Source of the DNA: Halospina denitrificans
Lineage (GTDB): Bacteria; Pseudomonadota; Gammaproteobacteria; Pseudomonadales; Oleiphilaceae
Assembly (NCBI RefSeq): GCF_004364635.1
Contig: NZ_SOAX01000001.1
Coordinates: 372,001-436,000 of the forward strand
DNA: 64,000 nucleotides
Direction: 5' to 3'
Shown piece after piece: positions 266 to 7,966 of this stretch. The translations under genes and the position numbers were made by a program. The stretch's first letter is position 1. Each line of letters begins with the position of its first letter. The notes beneath the pieces are model-generated. The model saw only the letters and a list, made by a program, of their open reading frames with translations, was not told the origin of the DNA and made no database searches.

Positions 266-937
266 TTGAATCTGTTCCACTGCCTTGGTGGAGGCACTGC
301 TGGCCGGCGATGGCTGTGGGCCCTGTTGGTGGGGCTGATGTTGATGGTTGCTGGCTGTTCCCTGTTCACGCCTTCGCCGCCCCGGGATCAGAGCAATATC
401 TGCGAGATCTTCCGCGAAGAGCCGCAGTGGTATGACTACGCCCGAGCCTCCGAAGAGAGGTGGGGTACGCCCATTGCCACCCAGATGGCCTTCGTGCAGC
501 GGGAGTCCTCGTTCCGCAGTCATGTACGCCCGCCCAGGCCCTGGATCTGGGGCATCATCCCCTGGTTCCGGTCCTCCTCCGCCTATGGGTATGCCCAGGC
601 ACAGGATCCGGTCTGGGGCGAGTATGAGGAGGACGCGGGTGGTCTTTTTGCGCGCCGCACCCACATGAAGCACGCCACGGACTTCATCGGCTGGTACAAC
701 CGGCGTACTCACGAGCGGCTGGGAATCGCGCTGTCCAATCCAGAACATCTGTATTTCGCCTATCATCAGGGACCGACGGGGTATCGGCGTGGGACTTACA
801 AGGGCAAGCCCGCCCTGAAGCGGTATGCGGCCAGTGTGCAAAGGAGAGCTTACGCCTATGACAACCAGCTCAAGCAGTGCGAGTCGGAATTCCGCTGTCG
901 TCGCTTCTACCAGTTCTGGCCCTTTTGCCAGAAGTGA
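266..937 (+). CDS. Lytic transglycosylase (SLT)-like lipoprotein
   Basis: A 223-residue predicted outer-membrane lipoprotein. It starts at a TTG preceded by AAGGAG at 255-260; the signal peptide ends in a VAGC lipobox (Cys31). The segment FVQRESSFRS near residues 76-85 looks like the catalytic-glutamate motif of soluble lytic transglycosylase domains (Glu followed by Ser), and SAYGYAQAQD matches the following substrate-cleft motif, where many relatives have GLMQ. A late YHQGPTGYRRG segment fits the family's G-Y-x-G region. If active it would cleave peptidoglycan glycan strands to anhydromuropeptides. It lies 90 bp upstream of a peptide-type ABC transporter operon on the same strand, so a role in murein turnover and uptake is possible but inferred. 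Confidence 0.65.
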   Translation: MNLFHCLGGGTAGRRWLWALLVGLMLMVAGCSLFTPSPPRDQSNICEIFREEPQWYDYARASEERWGTPIATQMAFVQRESSFRSHVRPPRPWIWGIIPWFRSSSAYGYAQAQDPVWGEYEEDAGGLFARRTHMKHATDFIGWYNRRTHERLGIALSNPEHLYFAYHQGPTGYRRGTYKGKPALKRYAASVQRRAYAYDNQLKQCESEFRCRRFYQFWPFCQK

Positions 938-1027: not shown

Positions 1028-3550
1028 GTGATAAAAAGAATCGCCTGGCTGCTGGCAGGGCTGATCCTTGGTGGGATTGTCCTTGTTGTGCTGATGGGCC
1101 AGGAAGACACCAGTGATACTGCGGATGACACCAGGGATGCCTCTGAGGTCGATGTGTCCGACCGCCGTGGCGCCCTGGTGGACGAGGTCGTTTTCACCCA
1201 GGAAACGGATGTGGGCAAGGTTGCCGGCCTGATCGAGCGGGGTAGCCACCAGGTTTTCGCCCAGGGGGTGACCAACACCACCACCTTCCATCGCCTGCAG
1301 GATTCCACCAAGGGCGACTATGAAACCGCCTACGGCTCCAATACGGAACTGACCCTGAATCCGGCCGAATTCGAGTCGGGCATCAACCCCTTCAGCAACC
1401 GCCGTATCCGCGAGGCCATGAACTGGCTGGTGAATCGCCGCCACGTGGCCGAGGAGATCTACGGCGGCATGGCGGTTCCCCGTTTTCTGCCCATGAACAC
1501 GGCCTTCCCGGACTACGCACGGCTCGCGGAAACCGCGCGGTCCCTGGAGCTCAAATATGGGTACAACCCTGAACGAGCCCGGGAGATCGTCGGCGAGGAG
1601 ATGGAAAAGTTGGGGGCAGAGCGTCGTGGGGGGAAATGGTACTACGACGGCGAACCGGTCACGCTCCGGATCCTGATCCGCACCGAGGATGCACGCAACC
1701 AGGTAGGGGATTACTTTGCCAACCTGATGGTCGACCTGGGCTTCGAGGTTCGCCGCCAGTATCGCACGGCGGAGGAAGCCTCGCGCATCTGGATTGCCAC
1801 GGACCCGGCTGCGGGCGAGTGGCATGTGTACACCGGGAGCTGGGTTTCAACGGCCATCAATCGGGATGTTTCCAGCAACCTGAGCTACTACTACACCAAC
1901 CGGGGGCGCCCGGATCCGCTCTGGCAGGCCTATGACCCAAGTGAAGAGCTGAACAGCATTGCCAAGCGGCTGGAGCGGCGGGACTACAGCAGCCTGGAGG
2001 AACGGCGCGATCTTATGGCCCGGGGCATGGAACTGGCCATGAAGGAGTCCTACCGGATCTGGCTGGTGGACCAGCTCAGCGTCATTCCGCGCGCGGCCAA
2101 CGTTTCACTGGCGGCGGACCTGGCCGGTGGTATCGCCGGCTCGCGACTTTGGCCCTATACGCTGCGGTACAAAGACAAAGTGGGCGGCAGCATGACCTTC
2201 GCCGCGCCCAGTATCCTGACCGAGCCCTGGAATCCGGTGGCGGGCAGCAACTGGCTGTTCGACACCATGATTACGCGCGCACTCAATGACCCACCGCTGG
2301 TGCCCGACCCCTACACCGGCCTTTATCGGCCCCAGCGCGTTGAAAGCGCCGAGGTCACCGTGAACGAGAACACCACGGTCAAGCGTACCCTTGACTGGGT
2401 GAGCCTGGAAACCAGCGAAAAAATCACGGTGCCGCCGGGGGCCTGGATCGGGTGGGACGCCAAGCGCAGTGACTTCAAGACGGTGGCGGATGCCCATCCG
2501 GAAGGGACCACCGCCCGTTCCCGGACCCGCATCACCTATGAGGAAGGCTTCCTGGACCGGCAATGGCATGATGGGACGGAAATGTCCCTGGCGGACCTGG
2601 TGCTGCCCTGGATCCTGATGTTTGCCCGCGCCGACGAGAACAGCCCCTTCTTTGATCCCGCCCATGTGCCGCGCTTCCGGGTGTTTGAGCAGTACTTCAA
2701 AGGCTGGCGGATCCTCGATCGGGACCCGCTGGTGATTGAGGTCTACAGTGACCAGGTCATGCCGGATGCCGAGACCATCGTGGCCCAGCAGGCGCTCTCG
2801 CCCCAGGCCTGGCACACCCTGGCGCTGGGGATGATGGCCGAGGAGGCGGGGGACCTGGCGTTTTCCTCCAATAAGGCGGACGCTGAGCGGATCGACTGGC
2901 TGAGCTTCGTCTCAGGGCCCAGCCTTGATGTGCTTAAACGCCACCTGGGGCGTGCGAGAGACAGGGAGTACCTTCCCTATGCCTCCGTCCTGGGGGATAT
3001 GATCGAGTCGGAGGAAGAGATTCCTTCCCGTTATCGGGCGCTTGCCGACTGGTACGAGCAGTACAATCATTTCTGGGTCGGGGACGGGCCCTTCTACCTG
3101 CACTCCGTGCATCCGGTGGAGAAGACCGTGGTGCTGCGCCGCAACGAGGATTTTCCGGACCCGGCCACCAAGTGGCTGGACTTCAGTGAGCCGGAAATCC
3201 CGGAGCTGGCCCTCAATGGCCCCATGATGGTGCGCCATGGCGAGTCCGCCCGTTTCTCGCTGGACATCACCTTCGGCGGCGAGCCCTACCCCAGGGAGGC
3301 CATTGAAAACGTGGAGTTCCTGCTTTTCGGTGGTGACGGGACCATGGAGAAAAAGGGTAAGGCGACCTACACCGATGGGGGGCGCTGGCAGGTTGAGCTC
3401 TCTGAATCCACTCTTGAATCATTGGGCGACGGAGCGAACAGCCTGGAAGTGGCGGTAACCTCGTCCCGGGTGGCACTGCCCGCCTTTGCCTCCCACGCCT
3501 TTGCCACGGTTCCCGAGGGCACAACGGTCATGGAGGCTGTCGATGAGTGA
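1028..3550 (+). CDS. ABC transporter family 5 substrate-binding protein, apparently circularly permuted
   Basis: An 840-residue periplasmic binding protein, membrane-anchored by residues 4-23, with no lipobox cysteine; GTG start. The usual family (SBP_bac_5) is about 500-550 residues. Here the order of blocks is unusual. Residues 50-140 (LVDEVVF, then NPFSNRRIREAMNWLVNR) match the middle of a normal family member. Residues 200-385 match its C-terminal part, and residues 387-709 match its N-terminal part (QWHDGTEMSLADLV at 512, then GDGPFYLHSVHP at 685). Residues 727-840 are a beta-rich tail, possibly Ig-like. It is the first gene of the operon and overlaps the next by 8 bp. The ligand is probably a peptide or muropeptide, but this is not shown by the sequence. 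Confidence 0.75.
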   Translation: MIKRIAWLLAGLILGGIVLVVLMGQEDTSDTADDTRDASEVDVSDRRGALVDEVVFTQETDVGKVAGLIERGSHQVFAQGVTNTTTFHRLQDSTKGDYETAYGSNTELTLNPAEFESGINPFSNRRIREAMNWLVNRRHVAEEIYGGMAVPRFLPMNTAFPDYARLAETARSLELKYGYNPERAREIVGEEMEKLGAERRGGKWYYDGEPVTLRILIRTEDARNQVGDYFANLMVDLGFEVRRQYRTAEEASRIWIATDPAAGEWHVYTGSWVSTAINRDVSSNLSYYYTNRGRPDPLWQAYDPSEELNSIAKRLERRDYSSLEERRDLMARGMELAMKESYRIWLVDQLSVIPRAANVSLAADLAGGIAGSRLWPYTLRYKDKVGGSMTFAAPSILTEPWNPVAGSNWLFDTMITRALNDPPLVPDPYTGLYRPQRVESAEVTVNENTTVKRTLDWVSLETSEKITVPPGAWIGWDAKRSDFKTVADAHPEGTTARSRTRITYEEGFLDRQWHDGTEMSLADLVLPWILMFARADENSPFFDPAHVPRFRVFEQYFKGWRILDRDPLVIEVYSDQVMPDAETIVAQQALSPQAWHTLALGMMAEEAGDLAFSSNKADAERIDWLSFVSGPSLDVLKRHLGRARDREYLPYASVLGDMIESEEEIPSRYRALADWYEQYNHFWVGDGPFYLHSVHPVEKTVVLRRNEDFPDPATKWLDFSEPEIPELALNGPMMVRHGESARFSLDITFGGEPYPREAIENVEFLLFGGDGTMEKKGKATYTDGGRWQVELSESTLESLGDGANSLEVAVTSSRVALPAFASHAFATVPEGTTVMEAVDE

Positions 3551-4655
3551 TGCCAATCTGCCCGCCGGCAGGGGTGCCGGTCCACTGCGTGATCTCCGGC
3601 GCCTGGCCTTCTTTACGCTCCGCCGGGTCCTGGCGCTGTTCGTGACCATACTGGTTGGCGTCTATCTCACCATCATCATCGCCAACATGGGCGGCAAGGT
3701 GGACGAGCTCCGCGAGCTCCAGATCCGCTCGACCATCTCCGAGGCCGTCCGCGCGGATCCGTCCTACCAGCAAATGGACTCAGAGGAACGCAACGCGCTG
3801 ATCCAGGAGCAGGTGCAGATGGAGATTGAGCGCCGCAACCTGGACGAGCCCTTTATCTGGCGCAGTTTCGACTACCTCGCCCAGGCCATACAGCTCGACC
3901 TGGGCCGGGCCGAGGAGATGCACAGTGATGCCGGCTCCCGGGATGTTTACGACATCATCGTTGAACGGCTGCCGGCGACACTGCTGCTGTTCGGCACCGC
4001 CAACCTTCTGGTGTTCTTCGTCTCCGTCTACGCGGCCCTGTACCTGTCACGACACTACGGCAGCCGCCTGGACAGGCTGGTTATCGGACTGGCACCCAGC
4101 TCGGCGGCGCCTGGCTGGTTCTACGGCATCTTCCTGATCCTGATTTTCGCGTTTATCATTCCCATACTGCCGGCCGGCGGCATGGTGGACATCCCGCCGC
4201 CGGAGAACGACTGGGCCTATGCCCGCAGCGTGCTGAGCCACATGGTGCTGCCGGTGATCGCCATGTTCATCTCGTCCATCTTCATTTCCATCTACTCCTG
4301 GCGGACCTTCTTCCTGATCCATTCCAGCGAGGACTATGTGGAAATGGCCCGGGCCAAGGGCCTGCCCGCCAACCTGATCCAGAGCCGCTACATACTGCGG
4401 CCCACGCTGGCACCCATCATCACCAACTTCCTGCTGATGCTGATCGGTCTCTGGAGCGGTGCCATCATCCTGGAGCAGGTGTTCAACTGGCCGGGGCTGG
4501 GAACGCTGCTGTTCCAGGCCATCGGGTACCGGGATACGCCCGTGATCATCGGCGGCGTGGTGATCTTTGCCTACCTGCTGGCGGTTACCGTGTTTATGCT
4601 CGATTTCCTCTACGCGATCCTGGATCCGCGTGTGCGCATTGAAGGAGGCCAGTAA
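3543..4655 (+). CDS. Peptide-type ABC transporter permease (OppB/DppB-like)
   Basis: A 370-residue inner-membrane permease. The ATG at 3543 was chosen because it overlaps the upstream stop by 8 bp and has GGAGG just upstream; an in-frame ATG at 3486 would lie inside the preceding gene. Residues 30-48 are the first membrane segment, followed by a charged periplasmic region (51-140) that includes the family segment NLDEPFIWRSFDYLAQAIQL. Further membrane segments follow, with the cytoplasmic EAA coupling loop at about 264-290 (DYVEMARAKGLPANLIQSRY). A typical relative has about 310 residues, so the first periplasmic loop is somewhat enlarged. It should pair with the permease at 4655 and the ATPases at 5983 and 6959. 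Confidence 0.88.
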   Translation: MSDANLPAGRGAGPLRDLRRLAFFTLRRVLALFVTILVGVYLTIIIANMGGKVDELRELQIRSTISEAVRADPSYQQMDSEERNALIQEQVQMEIERRNLDEPFIWRSFDYLAQAIQLDLGRAEEMHSDAGSRDVYDIIVERLPATLLLFGTANLLVFFVSVYAALYLSRHYGSRLDRLVIGLAPSSAAPGWFYGIFLILIFAFIIPILPAGGMVDIPPPENDWAYARSVLSHMVLPVIAMFISSIFISIYSWRTFFLIHSSEDYVEMARAKGLPANLIQSRYILRPTLAPIITNFLLMLIGLWSGAIILEQVFNWPGLGTLLFQAIGYRDTPVIIGGVVIFAYLLAVTVFMLDFLYAILDPRVRIEGGQ

Positions 4656-5986
4656 TGAATCGCTGGACGCAGGGATTCCGGGAGCTCAAGCGCTATCCCT
4701 CCGCACTGGGTGGCATGGCCATTATCCTGTTCCTGATCGCGCTGTCCTTCTACACCGTGATCACGATTCCCTATTCGGAGGCCCTGGAGCAGTGGCGCGG
4801 CGGGGATCACTGGCGAATGCACCCGGTCAATGCCTCGCCGCTCTGGACGGACCGGCTGACGGGTGGCGACAAACCTCAAACACAGGTGATCGAGAGTGAT
4901 GCCTCCGAGATTCGGGAAACGAGCTTTGAAGGCGGTAAACAGGTCCGCATCCCACTGGACTTCAGCTACAACAACGATGGCTTCCCCAGTGAACTCAACC
5001 TCTTCCTCGAACAGCGCCATAGCGGTCAGGAAGGCTTTGTCAGGCTGACCTGGCACCGGCCGGATGGTGAGACCATCAACCTGGGCGGCCAGCGGATTGG
5101 CGAGAAGGAGCGCGTCTCCATCTCCCAGAATTCCAGCCTGGAAGGTCGGCTGGGCATGGTTCCCCACGTAGGGCTGTTCGCGGGAGACAGTGATCCGGAA
5201 TCACCGCAGGCACGGCAGGGGCAGTACCGGCTGACCCTTGATGCCATCCTGTTTGACGAGAACGCCGAGCTGGAAGCGGACCTGGCTGTTTACGGCCGCG
5301 TCCATGGACTGGCAGGCACGGATTACCAGCGCCGGGACCTGATGCTGGCGCTGATGTGGGGCACCCCGGTGGCCCTGGCCTTTGGCCTTCTGGCCGCCGT
5401 GGGCACGACGGTCACTACACTGATCATCGCGGCCACCGGCGTCTGGTTCGGCGGCTGGGTGGACGCCATTATCCAGCGGCTGACCGAAGTGAACATGATC
5501 CTGCCCATGCTGCCGATACTGGTGATGGTGGGTACGCTCTACTCCACCAGCATCTGGCTGATGCTCGGGGTGGTGATTGCCCTGGGCATCTTCAGCGCCG
5601 GCATCAAGACCTACCGGGCCATGCTGCTGCCCATCCGCGAGGCCCCATACATTGAGGCGGCCCGGGCCTATGGCGCTGGCAGCGGGCGCATCATCATGCG
5701 CTACATGATCCCGCGCATCCTGCCGGTGCTGATCCCCACCTTCGTCACCCTGATTCCGACCTTCGTCTTCCTGGAGGCGTCGCTGGCGGTACTGGGGCTG
5801 GGTGATCCCGAGTTGCCCACCTGGGGCAAGGTGCTGAACGATGCCCAGGAGCAGAGCGCCCTCTATAACGGCTTCTACTACTGGGTGATCTCGCCGGCGG
5901 TACTGCTGATGCTGACGGGGCTGGGTTTCGCCATGTTCGGCTTCGCTCTTGACCGTGTATTCAACCCGAGGCTGAGGACGCAATGA
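4655..5986 (+). CDS. Peptide-type ABC transporter permease (OppC/DppC-like) with extra periplasmic domain
   Basis: A 443-residue permease whose ATG overlaps the previous stop by one base, with GAAGGAGG upstream. Residues 19-37 form the first membrane segment. Residues 66-212 form an inserted soluble, beta-rich domain absent from ordinary DppC proteins of about 300 residues. Family sequence resumes at LAGTDYQRRDLMLALMWGTP (219-238), the counterpart of the usual LGTDxLGRD motif. The EAA loop is EAPYIEAARAYGAGSGRI. The inserted domain faces the periplasm, so it could contact the large binding protein encoded upstream. The gene is translationally coupled to its ATPase through an ATGA overlap at 5983-5986. 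Confidence 0.86.
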   Translation: MNRWTQGFRELKRYPSALGGMAIILFLIALSFYTVITIPYSEALEQWRGGDHWRMHPVNASPLWTDRLTGGDKPQTQVIESDASEIRETSFEGGKQVRIPLDFSYNNDGFPSELNLFLEQRHSGQEGFVRLTWHRPDGETINLGGQRIGEKERVSISQNSSLEGRLGMVPHVGLFAGDSDPESPQARQGQYRLTLDAILFDENAELEADLAVYGRVHGLAGTDYQRRDLMLALMWGTPVALAFGLLAAVGTTVTTLIIAATGVWFGGWVDAIIQRLTEVNMILPMLPILVMVGTLYSTSIWLMLGVVIALGIFSAGIKTYRAMLLPIREAPYIEAARAYGAGSGRIIMRYMIPRILPVLIPTFVTLIPTFVFLEASLAVLGLGDPELPTWGKVLNDAQEQSALYNGFYYWVISPAVLLMLTGLGFAMFGFALDRVFNPRLRTQ

Positions 5987-6969
5987 CACAGAGCGCGGAC
6001 ACACTGCTCCAGGTCTCGGACCTGACCCTGCATTACCGTACCCGCCGGGGCACTGCCCGGGCCGTGGATGGCGTCAGCTTTGATCTGCGGCGCAATGAGG
6101 CCCTGGTGGTGCTGGGCGAGTCGGGTTCGGGTAAGAGCTCCCTGGCCAAGGCCCTGATGCGGCTGCTGCCGCGTAACATCGAGCGGTTCAGCGGTCAGGT
6201 TATGCTGGGCGATATGGACATCATGCAACTGGGTGACGAGGCTTTCCGCAAACAGGTCCAGTGGAACCGCATGGCGTTGGTGATGCAGGCGGCCATGAAC
6301 GCCCTCAATCCGGTGGTTCGCGTGGGTGAACAGGTGGCCGAGCCCCTGCGGGTGCACCGGGGGTGGTCGAAGGACAGGGCCATGGAGCGGGTGGCCGAGA
6401 CCTTCAGAAAGGTAGGTGTCTCCACAGACTTCCTCCAGCGCTACCCGTTCGAGCTTTCCGGTGGCATGCGCCAGCGGGTGGTCCTGGCTATGGCGCTGGT
6501 GACAGAGCCGGATGTGGTCATCCTGGACGAGCCCACCTCGGCGCTGGACGTGCTGACCCAGGCCAGCATCATGAACGTGCTCAAGCGCATCAAGCGCGAG
6601 GAAGGCACCAGTTTCATCCTGATCACCCACGATGTGGCCACCTCCAGCGAGCTGGCCGACCGGGTGGCGCTGATGTACGCGGGGCAGATCGTCGAGATCA
6701 GCGATGCGCGGGACTTCTTCCATTATCCGGCCCATCCCTACTCACAGATGCTCATGGACAGCGTGCCCCGTCTCCATCAGGCCGAGGCGCCGGGCTACAT
6801 CCCCGGCGAGCCGCCGGACCTGATCGACCCGCCGACGGGATGCCGTTTTGCGGACCGCTGCCCGTCGCGCTTCAGCAAGTGTTCCCAGGACCCGCCCGCG
6901 TTCAGCCCCGATGAGCGTCGCCGGGTGCGTTGCTGGCTGCATGAAGACGAGGTGGCCCGTGGAAGCTGA
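5983..6969 (+). CDS. ABC transporter ATP-binding protein (OppD/DppD-like)
   Basis: A 328-residue cytoplasmic ATPase. Walker A is GESGSGKSS at about residue 46; the ABC signature LSGGMRQR and Walker B VVILDEPTSALD follow. The C-terminal extension carries the four-cysteine-type oligopeptide-transporter motif (CRFADRCPSRFSKC), which in OppD/DppD proteins binds an iron-sulfur cluster. The start ATG overlaps the upstream stop as ATGA. With the next gene it forms the heterodimeric motor of the transporter. Confidence 0.9.
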   Translation: MTQSADTLLQVSDLTLHYRTRRGTARAVDGVSFDLRRNEALVVLGESGSGKSSLAKALMRLLPRNIERFSGQVMLGDMDIMQLGDEAFRKQVQWNRMALVMQAAMNALNPVVRVGEQVAEPLRVHRGWSKDRAMERVAETFRKVGVSTDFLQRYPFELSGGMRQRVVLAMALVTEPDVVILDEPTSALDVLTQASIMNVLKRIKREEGTSFILITHDVATSSELADRVALMYAGQIVEISDARDFFHYPAHPYSQMLMDSVPRLHQAEAPGYIPGEPPDLIDPPTGCRFADRCPSRFSKCSQDPPAFSPDERRRVRCWLHEDEVARGS

Positions 6970-7966
6970 ACAACAGAACGACATTCTGCTCAAAGCCAAT
7001 AACCTCCACACTTGGTTCGACCTGCGCCAGTGGGGCTTCCTGCGCATCGGGTCCGTGCGTGCCGTGGACGGTGTGGATTTCGAACTGGCCCGGGGCGAAG
7101 CCGTGGCATTCGTGGGGGAGAGCGGCTGTGGCAAGAGTACCCTGGCGCGCACGCTGCTCGGGCTGCACCGGCCCACCAGTGGCGATGTGACCTTTGATGG
7201 TCAGGAGCTGAGCACCCTCAAGGGCGAGGCCCGCCAGCAGTACCTGGCCAGCGTGGGTTATGTCCAGCAGGACCCCTTTGGTGCCCTGCCGCCGTTTATG
7301 GACGTGCGCCGGCTGCTGTCCGAACCGCTCATCATCCACGGCGTGAAGGACCGCGATACCCGGGAAAAGCGGATTCGCCAGGTGCTTGAGGAAGTGCGGC
7401 TGACCCAGGTGGACGAGATCCTGCCCAAGTTCCCGCACATGCTCAGTGGCGGGCAACAGCAGCGCGTTGTTATTGCCCGGGCCCTGCTTCTGGAACCTTC
7501 CATGCTGATTGCCGACGAACCGGTCTCCATGCTGGACGCCTCGGTGCGCGTGGAAATCCTGAACCTGCTGCGTAATATCCAGAAGCAGCGGAGCCTGACC
7601 CTGGCCTTTATTACCCACGACCTTTCCACCGTTCGCCATTACGCCGATCGCATCTTTGTGATGTACGCGGGTCGTATCGTGGAGCAGGCACCGGTGGAAA
7701 AGCTTCTGGACAGCCCGCAACATCCCTATACCCAGTCACTGCTCGCGGCGATCGCGGATGTGGATGCGGACAATGCCCTGGAGGAGCGTGACGTGCCCAG
7801 TGGGGAGCCACCGAGCCTGCTTAAGCCGCCTCAGGGCTGCCGGTTCCACCCGCGGTGCCCGAAAGCGATCGCAGGGACCTGCGACGTCAAGGATCCGCCC
7901 TTCTTCGAGCCCCAGACCGGCCACTTCTCGGCCTGCTGGCTCCATGACGAGGCGCATCGAGGCTGA
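6959..7966 (+). CDS. ABC transporter ATP-binding protein (OppF/DppF-like)
   Basis: A 335-residue ATPase partner of the OppD-like protein. Walker A is GESGCGKSTL, the signature is LSGGQQQRV and Walker B is MLIADEPVSMLD. The C-terminal cysteine motif is CRFHPRCPKAIAGTC. The chosen GTG at 6959 has GAGGTGG upstream and gives an 11-bp overlap with the previous gene; an ATG at 6941 is the alternative. Longer in-frame extensions would run deep into the upstream gene and are unlikely. Confidence 0.88.
   Translation: MEAEQQNDILLKANNLHTWFDLRQWGFLRIGSVRAVDGVDFELARGEAVAFVGESGCGKSTLARTLLGLHRPTSGDVTFDGQELSTLKGEARQQYLASVGYVQQDPFGALPPFMDVRRLLSEPLIIHGVKDRDTREKRIRQVLEEVRLTQVDEILPKFPHMLSGGQQQRVVIARALLLEPSMLIADEPVSMLDASVRVEILNLLRNIQKQRSLTLAFITHDLSTVRHYADRIFVMYAGRIVEQAPVEKLLDSPQHPYTQSLLAAIADVDADNALEERDVPSGEPPSLLKPPQGCRFHPRCPKAIAGTCDVKDPPFFEPQTGHFSACWLHDEAHRG

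Follow-up and report, generated by a model that had tools for sequence, protein, structure and literature searches.

A probable circularly permuted family 5 solute-binding protein in Halospina denitrificans and evidence for recurrent rotation in its archaeal kin

Introduction

Natural circular permutation is generally regarded as a rare event, occurring once in a protein family. A gene near the start of the window analysed here (a stretch of 64,000 nucleotides of Halospina denitrificans contig NZ_SOAX01000001.1) raises the question of whether a family 5 solute-binding protein (SBP) has exchanged the order of its two halves and, if so, whether this has happened more than once among its kin. The protein, P0001, is very probably a naturally circularly permuted family 5 SBP of an Opp/Dpp-type ABC importer. 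A wider proposal, which we consider likely, is that Thermoproteota family 5 SBPs are rings of three blocks (N, Cmid and Clast) found in all three cyclic orders, with at least three order changes that include switches between both non-canonical orders among 55-65% identical proteins, P0001 being a bacterial descendant of one archaeal rotation; rotation may also re-site the membrane tether.

Layout of the P0001 gene and protein

The gene is an intact open reading frame (ORF) of 840 aa with a GTG start, in which the following parts can be distinguished.

1028..3550, + strand: P0001, very probably a circularly permuted family 5 solute-binding protein (Pfam, phmmer, profile, hhalign, BLASTP)
1031..1096, + strand: N-terminal hydrophobic helix, residues 2-23, signal or membrane anchor (helix 2-23 in the AlphaFold2 model; sequence without cysteine)
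1166..2179, + strand: counterpart of the canonical C-terminal half (C-half), residues 47-384, LVDEVVF strand first (Pfam 49-291 to profile 146-365; hhalign 99.8)
2180..3205, + strand: counterpart of the canonical N-terminal half (N-half), residues 385-726, end near VGDGPFY...LRRNEDF (hhalign 97.7; 7fi3 63-310; AlphaFold2 model of the N-half)
3206..3547, + strand: beta-rich C-terminal tail, residues 727-840 (strands in the AlphaFold2 model; tail model in 70/90 permuted ORFs)

This layout agrees with the original prediction, which had placed the break between the counterparts of ERNPDYW and LDEVVF: the second canonical half occupies residues ~47-384 and the first runs from 385 to ~710. The N-terminus had been described as an anchor without lipobox, and the hydrophobic helix at 2-23 is indeed followed by no such motif, there being no cysteine, by eye, among the first 60 residues. 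The tail at 727-840, expected to be beta-rich, consists mostly of strands in the AlphaFold2 model and on our reading may be Ig-like. Searched alone against Pfam it gave no match at E<=1, and weak sub-cut-off matches to Ca_tandemer (Pfam) and 6xi1 (PDB) were seen.

Sequence evidence for the crossed order of the halves

In Pfam, SBP_bac_5 (PF00496) was the sole family above cut-off in P0001, matching residues 49-291 to positions 146-365 of a 368-position profile (E 2.2e-19) with 70.3 bits against a gathering cut-off of 32.4, which places the protein in the family. Since this match begins mid-profile, at 146, P0001 starts in the middle of the family model; by Pfam alone, its N-half was not detected. 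Both halves were found by phmmer in 7fi3_A, the OppA of Thermococcus kodakaraensis, where residues 488-713 matched 87-310 (i-E 2.7e-8) and residues 119-291 matched 402-585 (i-E 8.7e-19), i.e. two stretches in crossed order. Profile A1, built from 10 orthologous sequences with the window's copy included, matched the same structure at 63-310 with its positions 460-712 (i-E 6.2e-16) and at 398-583 with its positions 115-289 (i-E 1.4e-24). The order also crosses in BLASTP with the archaeal normal-order protein L113, whose residues 445-711 align to 106-346 of P0001 (E 1e-25) and whose residues 152-361 align to 512-710 (E 1.5e-6).

In a profile-profile comparison (hhalign), 83 permuted relatives were set against 41 further family 5 proteins, 15 duplicate loci having been dropped beforehand with the window's own copies among them; 3-329 aligned to 255-540 (probability 99.8) and 347-516 to 62-184 (probability 97.2). 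The N-half of the permuted set was matched to the N-half of the other family 5 proteins with a probability of 97.7, and mismatched halves gave 0.1 (N-half with C-half) and 5.3 (C-half with N-half). Three of the 41 comparison proteins (L086, L096 and L097) were later found to be non-canonical, i.e. in another rotation, and their rows in the C model hold only the middle block, which is sequence after the break. N-half HMMs built from the 41 proteins reached 8-26 bits in those members of the window's clade for which they gave matches to both halves, and did not report the window's own copy; with scores so weak or absent, the link of the P0001 N-half to the family rests on the profile-profile comparison, 7fi3 and L113.

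The claim that the SBP_bac_5 halves of P0001 are swapped is thus borne out by phmmer, profile HMM, hhalign and BLASTP, all of which depart from the canonical N-to-C block order, and it is because its blocks are out of this order that P0001 is called a permuted variant rather than a plain family 5 member. Searching the halves separately had been suggested as a check, and the hits do swap order (phmmer, HMM, profile, hhalign and BLASTP); no alignment putting the halves of P0001 in normal order was seen. Judged from these sequence matches, chance is not a candidate for their source.

Predicted structure

AlphaFold2 modelling of P0001 from 15 aligned sequences gave five models with mean pLDDT from 64.4 to 81.3, the best having a pTM of 0.76; residues 22-40 and 273-302, the latter within the C-half, and three short stretches had pLDDT under 50. 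In a Foldseek search of the PDB with the full model, the best match was 7fi3_A (E 1.1e-18, 397 columns), while the other 49 of the best 50 matches covered 299-355 columns of 465-669 residues with a TM by target of 0.33-0.49. Such partial coverage is as expected if only part of the modelled P0001 can be matched in sequence order. When modelled alone (pLDDT 85.1), the N-half again matched 7fi3_A (E 3.5e-14, TMq 0.69, 337 columns), its sole Foldseek match at E <= 0.001. As Foldseek rows come without aligned ranges, the crossing itself rests on the sequence tests described above. Nevertheless, the outcome of this second suggested check is that the P0001 model fits one SBP fold, with 7fi3_A as best match and the N-half alone also matching it, so that both halves are predicted to form a single bilobed fold. 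Two complete binding-protein folds within P0001 are made very improbable by the full and N-half models.

The transporter genes around P0001

The genes that follow P0001 encode the remaining components of an importer.

3543..4655, + strand: permease subunit B (BPD_transp_1), whose ATG lies within the end of the SBP gene
4655..5986, + strand: permease subunit C (BPD_transp_1), 443 aa (Pfam)
4766..5329, + strand: large segment of permease C before the transport domain, ~residues 38-225 (alignment; boundaries by eye)
5983..6969, + strand: ATPase 1 (ABC_tran + oligo_HPY; Pfam)
6941..7966, + strand: ATPase 2 (ABC_tran + oligo_HPY; Pfam; start chosen by eye)

Two BPD_transp_1 permeases and two oligo_HPY ATPases make this an Opp/Dpp-type neighbourhood, and P0001 is the one and only PF00496 match in the window's genome. 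The run SBP-permease B-permease C-ATPase-ATPase is found in the window and in 8 of the 14 loci with P0001-type proteins (L007-L011, L013, L014 and L020), a Desulfurococcales MAG being among these eight. In L012, L015, L016, L018 and L019 the contig ends before the run is complete, and in L017 no permease or ATPase was matched within ~1.9 kb after the SBP gene. Directly upstream of P0001, on the same strand, lies a gene with an SLT_4 transglycosylase domain (window 266-937), which was matched also in L007-L009 and not in the remaining loci compared.

The permease C segment at 4766-5329 was unaligned in two archaeal operons with canonical SBPs, where permease C has 301 and 293 aa (open frames). 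A tie between the enlarged permease C and permutation is, however, ruled out: permease C has 439 aa in the operon of the normal-order L113, and in those of L101 and L102, both permuted, it has 365 and 356 aa, respectively. The extra segment is therefore a feature of a broader transporter clade and not of the permutation. It is possible that this segment is a partner of the SBP tail.

Distribution of the permuted order

A search for related loci yielded 15, of which 14 (L007-L020) hold a P0001-type protein or part of one, the last (L021) being a normal-order protein that was matched weakly. Their sources are Halovibrio, Vreelandella utahensis and Aquisalimonas, and MAGs of Halomonadaceae, Alcanivorax, Rhodospirillales, Planctomycetota, Meiothermus and Desulfurococcales; some contigs in MAG bins may be foreign. 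From Halovibrio to the Desulfurococcales MAG, ten members keep the order at a mean column identity of 59%. Matches were present in 5/97 relatives of the window's genome and 6/369 genomes of its class (its own included in both counts), and in 2/246, 13/111 and 197/349 genomes in the phyla of the Planctomycetota, Meiothermus and Desulfurococcales MAGs, respectively (that MAG included each time), half order having been inspected in the fetched loci. Permuted order is frequent in the archaeal genomes sampled.

Both P0001-type halves occur in 92 distinct ORFs of the sample, which favours permuted genes since the search profile is itself permuted; 90 of them, the window's included, are permuted and two (L113 and L114) are in normal order. 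Relatives thus share the break of P0001, as the original prediction would have it. The tail model matches 70 of the 90 permuted ORFs, and in 59 the region near the C-terminus includes a strongly hydrophobic segment. Counted by hand, this segment is seen in 57/62 archaeal-sample ORFs versus 2/28 others, these two being barely above cut-off (1.61 and 1.62), and two of the five archaeal ORFs lacking it are truncated where the locus ends.

Origin of the window's clade

For the trees, the set of 83 permuted rows was reduced to 37 at 62% identity; that of permease B used 62 hand-chosen rows, those with <200 matched residues having been left out. One group among archaeal proteins, with a support of 98 (C-half), 92 (N-half) and 99 (permease B), takes in the bacterial relatives of the window: those from Gammaproteobacteria, from the MAGs of Planctomycetota and Meiothermus, and some of the other proteins sampled from the Meiothermus phylum. 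This placement fits a transfer of these genes from archaea to bacteria. Four proteins from bacterial-phylum samples (L149, L156, L158 and L159) are placed elsewhere in the permuted clade, apart from this group, so that either transfer took place more than once or some bins are contaminated.

L113 and L114 are normal-order relatives of the permuted clade; L113 carries a hydrophobic segment at its N-terminus, and the permease C beside it is enlarged. In the C-half tree, the two are placed among permuted proteins. A single clade of the window's type without them was not rejected by the AU test (p 0.415 for the C-half, 0.585 for the N-half), and in the permease B tree they are sister to the window's clade (support 92, not starred); a reversal in L113/L114 is therefore not required, and a single permutation with these two as normal-order sister of the window's clade is possible. 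In the same permease B tree, permuted L103 falls outside both, which implies either that L103 underwent a permutation of its own or that L113/L114 returned to normal order. A single origin of L103 and L104 with the window's clade and L113/L114 was not rejected (C-half p 0.581, N-half p 0.672). L103 (705 aa) and L104 (831 aa) are permuted SBPs distant from the window's clade, both with a hydrophobic segment at the C-terminus, and the L103 tail gives weak sub-cut-off Ig-like matches (Big_1 and Invasin_D3).

Recurrent rotation in archaea

Far from the window's clade, L101 matches the Pfam profile at 145-361 and then at 1-142, and L102-L104 are similar. BLAST of L102 against L086 aligned 308-705 to 130-534 (59% identity) and 55-279 to 547-771 (56% identity), by which the two are close kin in different rotation. 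Set against the canonical block order of L072 (N-Cmid-Clast), that of L102 is Cmid-Clast-N and that of L086 is Clast-N-Cmid. With L102 as query, 30 of 349 genomes gave matches, and the 30 fetched loci comprise 17 in the order Cmid-Clast-N (L102's own included) and 13 in the order Clast-N-Cmid; L087, in which the third order was seen with a Clast piece at E 0.2 only, was left out of the 13.

The third cyclic order, Clast-N-Cmid, is that of the archaeal family 5 SBPs L086, L096, L097 and L185-L197. Pfam shows one ordinary collinear match in the four entries scanned (L086, L096, L097 and L185, the last being the same gene as L096), because the moved block lies outside its model and the third rotation is thus invisible to it; collinear domain models can hide rotation. 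A reading of L086, L096 and L097 as normal order, with N before Cmid, was overturned in favour of the third rotation by the sequences and pairwise BLAST. Three other family 5 SBPs (L115, L120 and L087) have about 290-320 residues ahead of their N-half match.

In a tree of the L102-type clade with seven canonical outgroup rows, the two rotated orders are intermixed, with two changes required for each and three for all three labels taken together, on starred branches. The fork uniting three Cmid-Clast-N with nine Clast-N-Cmid proteins has a support of 98/94 and is starred; for the fork of the remaining fourteen Cmid-Clast-N proteins the values are 92/90, without a star. Two orders intermixed on a well-supported tree argue that rotation recurred, a conclusion that, on these sequences, is well supported within the L101/L102 clade.

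Whether the break that both the L101/L102 clade and the window's clade have was gained independently in each is a closer call. The break could have arisen once, in the ancestor of all permuted archaeal families, and been inherited by L101/L102. One clade of all permuted proteins together with the second-rotation group and L113/L114 is indeed not rejected by the AU test on single halves (p 0.132 for the C-half, 0.101 for the N-half). However, it is disfavoured with joined halves (p 0.038), and without the second-rotation group the C-half p falls to 0.0005; the C-half p for the window's clade with L113/L114, L101 and L102 is 0.0297. Moreover, the permease B tree places L101/L102 among operons of canonical SBPs, and rotation changes again inside their clade. 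We consider inheritance from one ancestral break unlikely and regard independent gain as moderately, if borderline, supported.

Alternative explanations and a possible mechanism

The usual model for gene rotation is tandem duplication with truncation at both ends, and this route would leave a C-half followed by an N-half, so P0001 could in principle be a fusion of two SBPs, each of them truncated, or a tandem duplicate that has degenerated, in which no single fold was re-formed. However, each half model matches P0001 (L002) once, the model fits one fold (AlphaFold2, Foldseek), and the order is conserved among the ten members compared above, which makes this very improbable. The weak or absent scores of the N-half HMMs from the 41 other family 5 proteins, and the fact that Pfam sees the C-half only, would suit an N-half that is non-homologous and was replaced by another domain, but this candidate is ruled out, and exceedingly improbable, in view of the homology detected by profile (7fi3 63-310, i-E 6e-16), by BLASTP to L113 and by hhalign, and of the Foldseek match of the N-half model to 7fi3. 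Nothing was found in favour of an assembly or frame artefact, the probability of which is negligible: it is contradicted, and ruled out, by the same order in independent genomes (90 distinct ORFs and 5/97 relative genomes, the window's own included in both).

As to function, Ig-like tails and anchors are also found in adhesive proteins, and there is a weak sub-cut-off adhesin-repeat match in the tail of P0001, which could therefore be a sensor or surface protein rather than the receptor of the importer. This is improbable, since P0001 directly precedes two permease and two ATPase genes, with permease B starting inside its end, and is the sole PF00496 match in its genome.

For P0001 as a permuted importer receptor, the following mechanism can be outlined. 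Its two lobes would fold as in OppA, the original C-terminus would run into the original N-terminus at about residues 380-390, and the new ends would lie in the loop between the ERNPDYW and LDEVVF counterparts, to which both the N-terminal hydrophobic helix and the beta-rich tail would attach. Since the canonical ends are joined with little or no linker (~380-390), the ring can open elsewhere. An oligopeptide-like ligand would be bound in the cleft and passed to the two permeases, driven by the two ATPases; such transport is inferred, and the ligands are probably peptides, by analogy with 7fi3, to which P0001 is kin and which was crystallised with an endogenous pentapeptide (entry title line). 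The new break is followed by the tail in the window's clade, and also by the C-terminal hydrophobic segment in most of its archaeal members, while in L101 an N-terminal hydrophobic segment and a proline-/threonine-rich linker join the same break from the other side. Both arrangements put the tether at the ERNPDYW/LDEVVF loop, and rotation perhaps serves to move the membrane tether point.

Comparison with known systems

A large receptor family has seemingly been rotated repeatedly, with close pairs in different order, and such pairs make it possible to test how rotation affects folding, docking and tethering, and by what route such genes come about. One naturally permuted binding protein has already been described. 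Treponema Tp0684 (MglB-2), proposed as 'Type Ic/Cluster Bc', is reported to be a circularly permuted binding protein of an ABC importer whose homologues are found for the most part in treponemes and Gram-positives; the part that moved, about 70-100 residues at the end, is poorly matched by sequence, and the authors considered domain replacement for part of the protein and speculated about tethering (PMC4990184). Tp0684 is, however, a Cluster B sugar-binding protein of another fold class (PMC4990184): the Pfam matches (E<=1) of P0001 and its best 50 Foldseek matches are family 5-type, not Cluster B (Type I). In our literature search, no permuted family 5 or archaeal SBP was found among the matches listed.

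P0001 resembles OppA/DppA/NikA-type proteins of PF00496 in its Pfam match above cut-off and its Opp-type neighbours, and differs from them in its swapped halves, added tail and missing lipobox; the lipobox cysteine of bacterial SBP lipoproteins was not seen in its first 60 residues. Its best match in both sequence and fold, 7fi3, is a large archaeal family 5 SBP that matches it in opposite half order. The archaeal L101/L102 clade and the L086/L096/L097 clade are both rotations of the same three blocks; the former has its break at the same boundary as P0001 and no match to an Ig-like tail in L101/L102, and the L086 type starts in the last block.
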